This document shows positions 12,228-41,344 of a stretch of DNA of 48,317 bases, piece after piece. Where the stretch lies: positions 1 to 48,317 of the forward strand of contig JAKITQ010000023.1 in NCBI GenBank assembly GCA_021647985.1. Reading direction: 5' to 3'. The notes below the pieces were generated by a model, which was not told where the DNA came from, ran no database searches, and saw only the letters and a program-made list of their open reading frames with translations. The position numbers were made by a program, and so were the translations under genes. The number at the start of each line of letters is the position of its first letter. The first letter of the stretch is position 1. The DNA is from Flavobacteriaceae bacterium (lineage in GTDB: Bacteria; Bacteroidota; Bacteroidia; Flavobacteriales; Flavobacteriaceae).

Positions 12228-12368
12228 TTTTTAATAGAATAAATTTGATTTTTTTGTGCTAATTCTAAAAATAATTCTCCAAAAAATGTTATCTCAATTT
12301 AAAACTTTTCAATTTTAATTAAGTAAAACCTACGCTTCTAAAATAAAGAGGAGAAAGCAATTAGTTAG

Positions 12369-12532
12369 TATACTCAAACCAGATAGGTTTTGGGTAATTT
12401 TGACGAACATTATTTTTTTCTTTAGTAAGGCAAAAAAATCAATCATAGCCTTAGTTATGATTTCTTTTTTTAACGTAGATAAAGAGAAAAAGAACGAGAC
12501 AAAAAACCAAAAAGCTGTTTGGTTTGAGTATA
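12369..12532 (+). repeat. 164-bp inverted-repeat element, copy 1
   Basis: The ends are perfect 13-bp inverted repeats: TATACTCAAACCA (12369-12381) and TGGTTTGAGTATA (12520-12532). In the middle a hairpin has 16-bp arms (12432-12447 and 12456-12471, 14 of 16 paired) and an 8-base loop GCCTTAGT. A second element at 41182-41344 shares the boxes GTAAGGC, CATAGCCTTAG, TATG, AACG and AAAAAGAAC at identical spacing. Confidence 0.75.
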
Positions 12533-12643
12533 TGTCAGTAAATATAATAAAATTAAATTAATTATTGAACCGTTTAAATTTATAAATATCTCAACAAAAG
12601 CACTATATTATATTTTTAGATATTGGGTTTCATTAGGAATTAC

Positions 12644-37729: not shown

Positions 37730-37746
37730 TATTTATTTATTTTACG

Positions 37747-37819
37747 CACGGGTGGAGAGGCTCGAACTCCCGACACCTGGTTTTGGAGACCAGTGCTCTA
37801 CCAACTGAGCTACACCCGT
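37747..37819 (-). tRNA. tRNA-Trp (anticodon CCA)
   Basis: The minus strand folds into a 73-base cloverleaf: acceptor ACGGGTG/CACCCGT, D-arm GCTC..GAGC, anticodon arm with loop CTCCAAA giving anticodon CCA, and T-arm CGGGAGTTCGAGCCTCTCC. Discriminator is G and the terminal CCA is not encoded. It lies between tuf and secE. Confidence 0.97.
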
Positions 37820-37950
37820 ATGAAGTAGTATTAATCTACTTAATTAGTATCCTGTTTTTACTAAATAAAAACATGCTGTTTAAAAGAATATAAGGCACCT
37901 CTTAAAAAGAAGCACCTGATATCCAATTTTAATTGATTAGACTAAATAAA

Positions 37951-39138
37951 TTAATCTAATATTTCAGTAACCTGACCTGCACCAACTGTTCTACCACCCT
38001 CACGGATTGCAAAACGTAAACCTAAGTTCAATGCTATTGGTTGTAATAAATCAACAGTAATAGTTAAGTTATCACCTGGCATTACCATCTCAACTCCGGC
38101 AGGTAAGTTAATTGTACCTGTTACATCCGTTGTTCTTACGTAAAACTGTGGACGGTAATTTTTATGAAATGGAGTATGACGTCCACCTTCTTCTTTTTTC
38201 AAGATATAAACCTCAGCTTTGAATTTTGCATGTGGTGTAACAGAACCTGGCTTACAAATTACCATTCCTCTTTTAATATCTTCTTTTGCAATACCTCTTA
38301 ATAAGATACCTACATTATCTCCTGCTTCACCTCTATCTAATATTTTACGGAACATTTCAACACCCGTAACAGTAGAAGTCAATTTTTCAGCACCCATTCC
38401 AATAATATCTACAGAATCACCAGTATTAGCAACACCCATTTCAATACGACCAGTAGCAACAGTACCACGACCAGTAATTGAGAATACATCTTCAACAGGC
38501 ATTAAGAAATCTTTATCAACATCTCTTTTTGGTAATTCAATCCATGTGTCAACAGCATCCATCAATTCCATAATAGAATCAACCCATTTTGGCTCACTGT
38601 TCAAACCACCTAAAGCAGAACCTGCAATAACCGGAGTATTGTCACCATCGTATTCATAGAAATCTAATAATTCTCTGATTTCCATTTCAACCAATTCTAA
38701 CAATTCTTCATCATCAACCATGTCTACTTTGTTCATAAACACTACCATTCTAGGAATACCTACCTGACGACCTAATAAGATATGCTCACGAGTTTGTGGC
38801 ATAGGACCATCTGTTGCAGCTACTACCAAAATAGCACCGTCCATTTGAGCAGCACCAGTTACCATGTTCTTTACGTAATCCGCGTGACCTGGACAGTCAA
38901 CGTGTGCGTAATGACGTTTTTCTGTTGCATATTCTACGTGTGACGTATTAATTGTAATACCTCTTTCTTTTTCTTCTGGAGCGTTATCGATTTGATCAAA
39001 ATCTTTAACTTCACAAAATCCTTTTTTAGCCAATACAGTAGTTATAGCAGCTGTTAAAGTAGTTTTACCGTGATCTACGTGACCAATTGTACCAATATTT
39101 AAATGTGGTTTCGAGCGGTCAAAATGTTCTTTTGCCAT
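37951..39138 (-). CDS. tuf: Elongation factor Tu
   Basis: The 395-residue GTPase delivers aminoacyl-tRNA to the ribosome. The G motifs are GHVDHGKT (about 19-26), the DCPGH block and NKVD (about 136-139), followed by the two beta-barrel domains ending [11 protein letters not shown]. Full length and canonical. It lies between the Thr/Tyr/Gly/Thr tRNA group and tRNA-Trp on the same strand, so it is probably co-transcribed with tRNAs that are cut from the same RNA. A broken tRNA copy lies in its leader. Confidence 0.99.
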
Positions 39139-39206
39139 GATTGTTAATTTTTAATCTTAGTTATATATATTTGTGTTTAATTCTTTTTTTTTGAAGCCCA
39201 AACTTT

Positions 39207-39264
39207 GAGCCAATGACGGGATTTGAACCCCTGCCTACCGGCAGGCAGGCGTGACCGCGGTCAC
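39207..39264 (-). pseudogene. Fragment of a tRNA-Thr 3' end, interrupted by a palindromic repeat
   Basis: Bases 39207-39230 match the 3' end of the tRNA-Thr(GGT) gene (39318-39341) at 24 of 24 positions. The next six tRNA bases, GTGACC, appear only at 39251-39256; between them sits the 20-base palindromic insert CTGCCTACCGGCAGGCAGGC (39231-39250). GTGACC is itself the left half of a perfect 14-bp palindrome ending at 39264. No anticodon, D-arm or acceptor 5' strand is present, so it is not functional tRNA. Confidence 0.85.
39231..39250. repeat. 20-bp GC-rich palindromic repeat inserted in the tRNA fragment
   Basis: The insert can fold as CCTGCC-TACC-GGCAGG. Related text occurs at 20711-20730 (CCTGCCT twice) and, more distantly, TCCGTC-TGCT-GACGGA at 8329-8344. 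I recall hairpins of this type as abundant in flavobacterial genomes. Confidence 0.7.
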
Positions 39265-39318
39265 TCACTTTCATTTTTCAATATTTTCATTAGCAACAAC
39301 CTATCATTTATTTAACAG

Positions 39319-39390
39319 AGCCAATGACGGGATTTGAACCCGTGACCTCTTCCTTACCAAGGAAACGCTCTACCCCTGAGCTACACCGGC
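39319..39390 (-). tRNA. tRNA-Thr (anticodon GGT)
   Basis: A 72-base cloverleaf on the minus strand: acceptor GCCGGTG/CATTGGC (two G-T pairs), anticodon loop TTGGTAA giving GGT, T-arm ACGGGTTCAAATCCCGT. Discriminator T; CCA not encoded. It is last of four tRNAs before tuf. Confidence 0.96.
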
Positions 39391-39514
39391 TTTTAATTGT
39401 TTTGCAGAACCGGACTCCTCTCACTTTCATATACTCTCAATTTTTATTCTTCTTGGAGTAGATTTTATTTTCACAAAACGTCATCATTCTTCTTTTTTTG
39501 TTGTGAAAAAACAG

Positions 39515-39587
39515 AGCGGGAGACCGGGCTCGAACCGGCGACAATCAGCTTGGAAGGCTGAAGCTCTACCAACTGAGCTACTCCCGC
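39515..39587 (-). tRNA. tRNA-Gly (anticodon TCC)
   Basis: A 73-base cloverleaf on the minus strand: acceptor GCGGGAG/CTCCCGC, anticodon loop CTTCCAA giving TCC, T-arm GCCGGTTCGAGCCCGGT. Discriminator T; CCA not encoded. Confidence 0.97.
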
Positions 39588-39616
39588 TTAAATTTTTTAT
39601 TATTAATAAATTCATG

Positions 39617-39697
39617 TGGGGAGAGCAGGATTCGAACCTGCGAAGGTTTCCCAACAGAGTTACAGTCTGTCCTCGTTGGCCGCTTGAGTATCTCCCC
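39617..39697 (-). tRNA. tRNA-Tyr (anticodon GTA)
   Basis: An 81-base class II tRNA on the minus strand with a long variable arm: acceptor GGGGAGA/TCTCCCC, anticodon loop CTGTAAC giving GTA, T-arm GCAGGTTCGAATCCTGC. Discriminator A; CCA not encoded. Confidence 0.97.
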
Positions 39698-39729
39698 TCA
39701 ATTATTTATTATTTCGTTTCAAAGAACTG

Positions 39730-39803
39730 AGCCGATGGAGGGACTCGAACCCACGACCTGCTGATTACAAATCAGCTGCTCTAGCCAGCTGAGCTACATC
39801 GGC
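39730..39803 (-). tRNA. tRNA-Thr (anticodon TGT)
   Basis: A 74-base cloverleaf on the minus strand: acceptor GCCGATG/CATCGGC, anticodon loop TTTGTAA giving TGT, T-arm GTGGGTTCGAGTCCCTC. Discriminator T; CCA not encoded. It is first in the tRNA-tuf transcription unit. Confidence 0.97.
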
Positions 39804-40257: not shown

Positions 40258-41148
40258 TTAATTGTTTTTATTGCCCCTTGGATGGGCATGGTTATACATT
40301 ATTTTTAAATCTTTCAAACTACTATGCGTATAAACCTGAGTTGATGCCAAACTCGAATGACCTAACAACTCTTTTACAGCATTTAAATCAGCTCCCTCAT
40401 TCAACAAATGTGTTGCAAAGGAATGCCTAATAACATGTGGACTTTTTTTTGTTTTAACAGATACTTTACTAAAGTAATCATTTATTAATCTATATACAAG
40501 TGTTGGATAAATTTTTTCTCCCTTGCTTGTAACAAAAAAATGATCGTTTGTAGTTTGTAATTTTGCTTTTTGAATTTTATAATTTTCTATAGATTCTATT
40601 ACTGAATTTAATAACGGAATCTGTCTTTCTTTATTTCTTTTTCCTCTTACTTTAACAATACTTTGTGAAAGGTCAATTGATGTGTTTTTTAAATCAATTA
40701 ATTCTGATCTTCTCATACCTGTAGAATACAGCAATTCAATCAATAATTTATCTCTAACCGATTTGAAATCATCAGTATCTTCAAAACCCTGTAACACGGC
40801 AAACATCTCCTTTTGCGAAAAAGGTACATTTATTTTTTTTGCAACCTTTAGGGATTGGTGTTTCCGTAAAGGAGATTGATCGATTTGTTTGGTTTTTAAT
40901 AAAAAATTAAAATAAGATTTTAAAGAACTAACTTTTCTATTAATTGTACGGTTTGTAATACCATTTTCCACCAAACTAATAATCCAACTTCTTATAATAC
41001 TATATGGTACAATAGAAACATTACTCTCATTAAACTCTTTTTCACAAAACACCTTAAAAGACTCTATATCTTTTTTATAAGCAGTGATAGTAAATGGCGA
41101 ATATTTTTTTTCGTAATTAATATATTCTATAAAATGAAGTATACTCAA
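40258..41148 (-). CDS. Tyrosine recombinase XerC/XerD type
   Basis: The 296-residue integrase-fold protein has an N-terminal SAM-like domain and a C-terminal catalytic domain with the full set Arg146 (TGMRRSEL), Lys170, His238, Arg241 (HVIRHSFATHLL), His264 (LLGHSSLAST) and Tyr273 (QVYTHSS). Length and motif spacing fit the chromosomal dimer-resolution recombinases XerC/XerD rather than phage integrases. The text between rpsU and hpf is a stable location in Flavobacteriia, arguing for a housekeeping XerC. No attachment sites are seen, despite tRNA genes nearby. Confidence 0.88.
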   Translation of the reverse strand: MSILHFIEYINYEKKYSPFTITAYKKDIESFKVFCEKEFNESNVSIVPYSIIRSWIISLVENGITNRTINRKVSSLKSYFNFLLKTKQIDQSPLRKHQSLKVAKKINVPFSQKEMFAVLQGFEDTDDFKSVRDKLLIELLYSTGMRRSELIDLKNTSIDLSQSIVKVRGKRNKERQIPLLNSVIESIENYKIQKAKLQTTNDHFFVTSKGEKIYPTLVYRLINDYFSKVSVKTKKSPHVIRHSFATHLLNEGADLNAVKELLGHSSLASTQVYTHSSLKDLKIMYNHAHPRGNKNN

Positions 41149-41181: not shown

Positions 41182-41344
41182 AGTGTCATGTCAAGCATAT
41201 TTTAGTCATACCAAGTTTTGTTCTTTTTGCCGATAGCTTCGTTGATATTTTTAACCATATCTAAGGCTATGCTGAAAAATATCGCCTTACTCTCAACAAA
41301 AATAAACTTCTACTTAAACGACACAATACATTTGACATAACACT
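41182..41344 (-). repeat. 163-bp inverted-repeat element, copy 2
   Basis: The ends pair as AGTGTCATGTCAA (41182-41194) and TTGACATAACACT (41332-41344), 12 of 13. The central hairpin has 16-base arms (41244-41259 and 41268-41283, 14 of 16 paired) and, on the minus strand, loop GCCTTAGA. Boxes shared with copy 1 at 12369-12532 occur in the same order and spacing on the minus strand. Confidence 0.75.

Follow-up and report, generated by a model that had tools for sequence, protein, structure and literature searches.

What are the two palindromic elements, 164 and 163 bp in length, carried by a 48,317-nucleotide stretch of DNA from a Flavobacteriaceae bacterium (assembly GCA_021647985.1, contig JAKITQ010000023.1, positions 1 to 48,317; the window)? 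Both occur where an earlier note on this DNA had placed them (Table 1), with a mobile element resembling a MITE (miniature inverted-repeat transposable element), an RNA element and a short protein offered as explanations. We conclude, at a probability of roughly two in three, that they belong to a family of non-autonomous palindromic MITEs of about 160 bp, whose hairpin acts single-stranded, most likely as the element's own RNA, for the spread or survival of the element. Best supported are dispersal, covariation, strand asymmetry and, in two of the end classes, target duplication. The mobile explanation is upheld by dispersed copies, inverted ends and target duplications in two end classes, and the RNA explanation stands in part: the structure is compensatory and kept on one strand, and from this we infer action as RNA.

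Element 1 is present in 14 full-length copies in its own genome (3.0 Mb in 80 contigs; window copy included, 162–164 bp, 77–100% identity), together with fragments, and element 2 has one further near-full copy there with 90% identity. A covariance model of the core shared by both elements (R1) matches 10 of the 22 genomes of the genus (E 0.01), 80 of 299 genomes and 71 of 236 genera of the family (E 0.001), and 11 of 395 genomes of the phylum (1e-4), eight of the latter belonging to the same family, two to another family of the class and one to another class; the own genome is counted at each level. The earlier note had left the presence of further copies to a genome-wide search, which thus finds them in the own genome, with homologous cores in genus, family and phylum. 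Match counts within the genus range from 0 (12 of the 22 genomes) to 68 in G018, reverse-strand shadows included. Scanning named genomes with a strict pattern returned 61 loci, many from metagenome bins, in the genera Aquimarina, Lutibacter, Tenacibaculum, Maribacter, Hyunsoonleella, Ichthyenterobacterium, Spongiivirga and Brumimicrobium, and in Vicingaceae, Bacteroidales, Salinivirgaceae and 'Chlorobiota'; carrier isolates include Aquimarina agarilytica ZC1, Brumimicrobium glaciale IC156, Spongiivirga citrea, Hyunsoonleella ulvae and Ichthyenterobacterium magnum. The strict pattern has no match in viral contigs, and no matches were found in plasmids (two queries) or phages (one query). At the gathering threshold, Rfam identifies five tRNAs in the whole window and nothing at the elements, and a permissive scan of 12300–12600 gives five weak matches (lowest E 1.9), all under the gathering score. 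Searches of the open-licence literature gave no description of the family, apparently a large and undescribed one of tiny mobile DNA elements in Bacteroidota.

The letter counts given below refer to 98 distinct cores found and aligned by R1, with 99 rows kept after removing 54 lower-scoring reverse-strand shadows. Loci L352–L412 are excluded from them; the pattern that selected these loci contains both AAGGC and the apex, and they are therefore no evidence for either. Loci with identical flanks or cores were removed before context, strand and end counts, a mis-centred locus (L321) was removed from the 209-locus set onward, and the 216-locus set lacks L168–L187.

The ends fall into four classes that differ completely from one another, with length and hairpin plan retained. 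Class A, with TATACTC ends, includes element 1; class B, whose definition includes CTAG at the left flank, includes element 2; class C has GGG, GAG or GTA ends and class D TACC or TACG ends (element end patterns TACSAATT, RGGGNCTGTT, TATACTCA and CTAGTGT). Among class D copies 45 of 64 have matching 3-bp flanks, where re-pairing expects 22.8 with a maximum of 33 in 2000 draws, as do 33 of 38 class C copies (expected 17.5, maximum 26); these target duplications are mostly TTA/TAA. Ten near-identical copies in genome G220, at nine distinct sites, have TTA or TAA on both sides as judged by eye. TA stands at both sides in 21 of 28 class A copies, and CTAG in 9 of 12 class B copies (the left CTAG defining the class), and re-pairing yields the same numbers for each. 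The elements are short, non-coding and dispersed with terminal inverted repeats, as are bacterial MITEs, and have a 3-bp duplication in classes C and D. Lengths without flanks are 158–161 in class D, 157–162 in class C (36 listed of 38), 159–160 with a single 164 in class A, and 158–159 in class B; this near-constancy applies to elements passing the boundary search (64 + 38 + 28 + 12 of 216 loci), which took lengths of 154–168 before trimming and at least 11 of 16 end bases matching, and copies with nested inserts exist.

On a tree of the cores (98 columns and 196 rows, with class labels assigned by rough regular expressions and 13 rows unlabelled) end class changes 19 times, compared with a shuffled mean of 85, so that the classes are clustered and are not single clades. 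Starred branches force at least 3–4 changes per end class, which suggests that ends may have been exchanged between classes. Among the copies with nested inserts, a further small repeat (GAACTGCGAAGCACATCACGAAC... or its reverse complement), which measures about 50 bp in L185, lies inside the right hairpin arm in four genomes, directly after AAAAAGAA or its equivalent in L185 (G263), L290 (G131) and L311/L312 (G018), and closer to the AACG box in L017 of the own genome; L468 (G018) is also a carrier. Copies L076, L320 (G018) and L290 (G131) contain short palindromes (CCTGCCTGCCGGCAGGCAGG; CCCGATAGCTATCGGGA) in the left arm right before GTTAT, in the manner of REP-like nested inserts.

Element 1 matches its own reverse complement across all 164 bases (73%), and the whole element is therefore an imperfect palindrome. 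The 13-bp inverted ends described earlier are perfect in element 1, and only 12 of 13 positions match in element 2, the remaining position forming a G·U pair in the folded strand. Each of the five boxes of the earlier note occurs in both elements at equal spacing (TATG, AACG and AAAAAGAAC being 16 and 15 bases apart start to start, by eye). The central hairpin is also present. In element 1 its apex is better represented as a loop of 4 bases, CTTA, that CATAGC/GTTATG closes, and in the folds of elements 1 and 2 the hairpin spans the entire element, beyond the centre alone. The 5' AAGGC of element 1 lies opposite the 3' AACG as an internal loop, and an A·G mismatch falls within the TTATTTTT/AAAAAGAAC stem. 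Predicted RNA folding energies are -55.2 kcal/mol for element 1 (mean of 200 shuffles -24.65; z -9.3), -53.3 kcal/mol for element 2 (z -7.5) and -45.5 kcal/mol for L060, a copy with different ends (z -5.2); z is below -3 in 59 of 60 randomly picked elements, with a median of -7.2.

The core is under compensatory evolution. With 29 cores aligned, both sides have changed with pairing kept at 22 of 34 pairs (10–14 when slid, shuffled mean 13.1), and with 18 elements chosen to be diverse at 25 of 34 (14–18 when slid, shuffled mean 16.8). The covariation score of the diverse set is 0.473, a value reached by 0 of 500 shuffles (mean 0.170) and well above the slid alignments (at most 0.166), although sequences of this kind had served to derive the structure, and the shuffles ignore relatedness. 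This set includes L486 of G509, a genome of another class of the phylum; in this GC-rich copy G-C pairs take the place of many A-T pairs of the arms, and the fold reaches -99.9 kcal/mol. The covariation is accepted because the effect size and the GC-rich copy are persuasive, and the selected structure that the earlier note proposed is substantiated by compensatory change above both slid and shuffled controls, with the fold kept on one strand. The letters of the core are conserved to different degrees. The apex is nearly fixed, with CATAGC or CGTAGC in 91 of the 98 cores, and AAAAG occurs in 93, AAAAAGAA in 51, AACG in 65 and AAGGC in 46. Mismatches also persist, a G·G beneath the apex in 70 cores and an A·C in the apical stem in 63; at the latter, element 1 has the paired form. 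Of the boxes that the earlier note saw in both window elements, those of the internal loop are kept in about half to two thirds of cores.

The hairpin is not equivalent on the two strands. The plus strand folds better in 29 of 29 aligned elements, with both RNA and DNA parameters, in 186 of 195 elements with RNA parameters, and by genome-mean fold in 25 of 26 genomes. In the predicted folds the plus strand has 466 outer-arm G·U pairs and the minus strand 85, with plus-to-minus counts of 65:6 in class A, 247:27 in class D, 62:26 in class C and 66:13 in class B, and the bias has the same direction in 24 of 26 genomes. The outer arms are unrelated between end classes. One copy, L239 (G220:C44, about 31211), has G220-family ends and TAA flanks with a diverged middle and a core seemingly in the opposite orientation.

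Insertions lie predominantly between genes, and their orientation to genes is neutral. The core centre is outside ORFs (open frames of at least 90 aa, not gene calls) in 152 of 156 distinct loci and inside in 4, and of 209 loci 3 have the element inside an ORF of at least 100 aa, two of these being GC-rich G509 copies. Among the 209 loci, co-directional gaps within 600 bases include 59 sense and 48 antisense insertions (p 0.33), with 40:35 within 300 bases and 64:50 within 1000. At 9 or more of the 156 loci the element starts no more than one base from the end of an upstream ORF, which would fit insertion into TAA stop codons, where duplication of TAA preserves the stop. A half element in the own genome (L016; C19:20944) overlaps the end of a 342-aa ORF (1542–2570, minus), presumably of the ArgK/MeaB-type GTPases, and is apparently a decayed gene-end insertion.

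These features suggest how such an element might be propagated. Fixed 3-bp duplications together with inverted ends point to a DDE transposase, which would be provided in trans and cut at the element ends. TA, TNA and CTAG target patterns are those of IS5-family subgroups, and the different end classes may follow different transposases. The hairpin probably works single-stranded, most likely as the element's own RNA, which a factor shared by these bacteria may bind or process. A fold maintained on one strand is hard to explain through neighbouring mRNAs, because about half of the insertions place the other strand in the neighbours' transcript; since gene orientation is neutral, our main inference is that the structure serves the element itself and not a neighbouring gene. 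It could promote spread or survival, for example if a stable transcript binds a protein and so helps mobilisation or protects the insertion. RNA is favoured as the acting form because G·U pairs stabilise RNA, and the corresponding G·T pairs are weak in DNA.

A more far-reaching version, which we put forward only tentatively and think possible with the balance against it, is that of a structured RNA mobile across the phylum: one hairpin module would have travelled with several unrelated transposon termini and target specificities, the selected part being a strand-specific structure read by a common Bacteroidota factor, and not the ends. It is somewhat less probable, and on the whole unlikely, that the conserved single strand is DNA, with the hairpin recognised during transposition as extruded or lagging-strand single-stranded DNA and any RNA incidental. 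Integron attC sites and the ends of IS200/IS605 elements are recognised as single-stranded DNA hairpins, and such recognition would accommodate the plus-strand preference with DNA parameters (29 of 29), the retention of the hairpin plan while ends change, and a flank GC skew that is weakly positive on the element strand (mean 0.016, p 0.018; positive in 121 of 209, p 0.027). However, the 3-bp duplications of classes C and D are unexpected for HUH/Y1 or attC reactions, the 13 copies of the complete genome G263 have no clear replication-strand preference by eye, and G·U pairs are abundant in spite of the weakness of G·T in DNA. More doubtful again is an ordinary MITE family in which the core would simply be a palindrome passed on by descent and the strand bias a functionless founder effect. 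The core tree largely tracks end class, AAGGC is kept in fewer than half of the cores, and MITE transcripts generally form stable hairpins according to excerpts of two accounts (PMC2229807, PMC10969869); yet a founder effect would not readily keep the apex while adjacent pairs change compensatorily, nor produce the same strand bias in all four end classes, whose arms are unrelated.

A host regulatory RNA or cis-element, such as an attenuator or 3' UTR stabiliser dispersed to benefit neighbouring genes, appears very unlikely. In the first set of 156 loci sense insertions did exceed antisense ones (47:27 in co-directional gaps; 76:52 upstream of gene starts, p 0.04; 85:65 downstream of gene ends, p 0.12), and convergent gaps outnumber divergent ones by 46:24, but the co-directional excess is no longer significant with 209 loci, the number of matches within one genus varies between none and 68, and Rfam has no match. 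The short protein, comparable to the in-frame palindromic elements of Rickettsia, we consider discounted for practical purposes. Element 1 and 7 of 13 scored type-1 copies of the own genome do have the frame in question (the IAL frame) open, but a minus-strand frame is open equally often (8 of 13), copies differ in length by single bases (e.g. L007), and IAL-frame stops occur in nearly all copies of other groups: the frame is open in 0 of 2 type-2 copies, 0 of 13 in G263, 0 of 10 in G492, 0 of 9 scored in G018 and 0 of 10 in G127/G333, no G530 copy could be scored, and only 3 of 54 scored public loci have it open.

Several observations weigh against a mobile element that uses its own hairpin as RNA. 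In classes A and B a duplication is indistinguishable from a fixed end because the flank hardly varies, and the internal-loop letters AAGGC and AACG are less conserved than the apex. The mean fold of G492 is slightly better on the minus strand (+1.0), the outer-arm G·U bias is reversed in G530 (8:12) and G509 (4:6), and the core G·U balance is only 585:428, a smaller asymmetry that is due in part to the apical-stem A·C, which would be G·U on the opposite strand. All of the strand counts treat related copies as separate. Lastly, the genomes and transposase families searched, which cover part of the transposase loci, yielded no autonomous element whose ends match.

The search for such a partner took both ends and transposases as starting points. 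End patterns in G220 gave no inverted pair 0.4–3 kb apart among the 55 places listed (by eye), the one end pair 330 bp apart being an element that carries an insert; those in G123, G178 and G331 gave inverted pairs 55–222 bp apart and single sites. Two of these single sites, on the complete chromosome of G123 (C1:2151844 and 2161510), face each other 9.7 kb apart; no partner was found, the DNA between those two lying outside the search. DDE_Tnp_1 matches occur at 17 loci in 6 genomes, and in the 14 loci scanned (18-base inverted ends, at most 3 mismatches, 0.7–3.2 kb apart) element-like ends are absent among the five best inverted pairs per locus; at E 1e-5 this family has no match in the complete genome G263, where 13 copies of the element were read. 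DDE_Tnp_1_2 is found at 26 places in 11 genomes, and ends were compared for 16. The insertion sequences of G263 and G123 (L491, L496, L501, L504, L506; L497, L502, L505, L507, L509), each present in five near-identical copies with a DDE_Tnp_1_2 frame of 454–471 aa, and which we take to be IS1182-like, have ends AGGCGCATTC and AGGGACATTC unlike those of the elements and were rejected as partners, as was a four-copy insertion sequence of G168 with a TGAAGTGATTT-like end; two further DDE_Tnp_1_2 loci of G168 yielded no alignment. DDE_Tnp_4 matches occur in 3 of 20 genomes. No transposase was recognised among the ORFs at half elements L015, L016 and L026, where a family search was not run. The TA, TNA and CTAG target patterns are seen, and matching insertion sequence ends are absent from the transposase loci scanned.

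Table 1. Coordinates of the two elements and their parts within the window.
Feature	Position	Strand	Remarks
Element 1	12369..12532	+	Full length; end class A (TATACTC...GAGTATA)
Left terminal inverted repeat, element 1	12369..12381	+	TATACTCAAACCA; outer TA is the usual class A flank
Right terminal inverted repeat, element 1	12520..12532	-	TGGTTTGAGTATA
Conserved structured core, element 1	12405..12500	+	R1, 99.6 bits
AAGGC, internal loop 5' side, element 1	12427..12431	+	
Apical hairpin CATAGC-CTTA-GTTATG, element 1	12444..12459	+	
AACG, internal loop 3' side, element 1	12472..12475	+	
AAAAAGAAC box, element 1	12487..12495	+	Partner TTATTTTT; contains A·G mismatch
Element 2	41182..41344	-	Full length; end class B (AGTGTTATGTC...GACATGACACT)
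Conserved structured core, element 2	41215..41310	-	R1, 85.1 bits

Within the window, element 1 lies between genes for a regulator-propeller histidine kinase and a UPF0004/radical-SAM/TRAM protein, and element 2 between genes for a transglycosylase/transpeptidase and a phage-integrase-family protein. A phage-integrase-family gene and, after it, five tRNA genes (Thr, Tyr, Gly, Thr, Trp) are found downstream of element 2 on its strand, together occupying 37746–39803 and 40258–41148.

REP/RAYT palindromes and integron attC sites resemble the Bacteroidota element as structure-dependent, strand-specific hairpins with mismatches, and to our knowledge they have no fixed short duplication and differ from it in size and ends. 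ERIC sequences are known from Enterobacteriaceae and Vibrionaceae. Excerpts of published accounts describe ERIC as a small palindrome with TA ends, a target duplication, a long stem-loop transcript and a copy number that varies between relatives (PMC2229807, PMC10969869), with a length for ERIC (RU-1) of 127 bp (PMC2759123). The Bacteroidota element is likewise small and palindromic with TA ends, a target duplication and a long stem-loop, but it is about 160 bp long, resides in Bacteroidota and combines a single hairpin plan with four or more unrelated end classes; the two are set apart by length and host. Correia/NEMIS and RUP are described, in the excerpted account, as MITEs that end in TA and have terminal inverted repeats, duplications and stable RNA hairpins, RUP having IS630-Spn1 as its likely partner (PMC2229807). 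These traits are shared as well, although, unlike for RUP, a partner insertion sequence was not found in the genomes searched. MITECca01 of Cardinium (Bacteroidetes), of about 240 bp and with an IS982-family parent, is reported only in that strain in the excerpt concerned (PMC9769881); it too is a non-autonomous inverted-repeat element of the same phylum, whereas the present family is widespread and no parent was found in the searches. Rickettsia palindromic elements are similarly palindromic and multi-copy with a partly open frame, but in-frame insertion within protein genes is not the pattern here, nearly all core centres lying outside ORFs and the frame not being kept.

In size, intergenic sites, AT-rich palindromes and TA ends the elements thus resemble ERIC, Correia and RUP, and they differ in host range, in having at least four end classes and in the evidence for one-strand selection, which was examined in the Bacteroidota element alone. 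They apparently represent a new family of bacterial palindromic MITEs of the ERIC/Correia/RUP type. Palindromic MITEs are usually regarded as degenerate transposons with the ends as the conserved part. Here the ends turn over while the hairpin plan, apex and total length persist across the phylum, with the fold on one strand, a pattern indicative of a step at which structure is read in the life cycle of these elements, and suggestive of a small jumping sequence carrying a structure-dependent signal.
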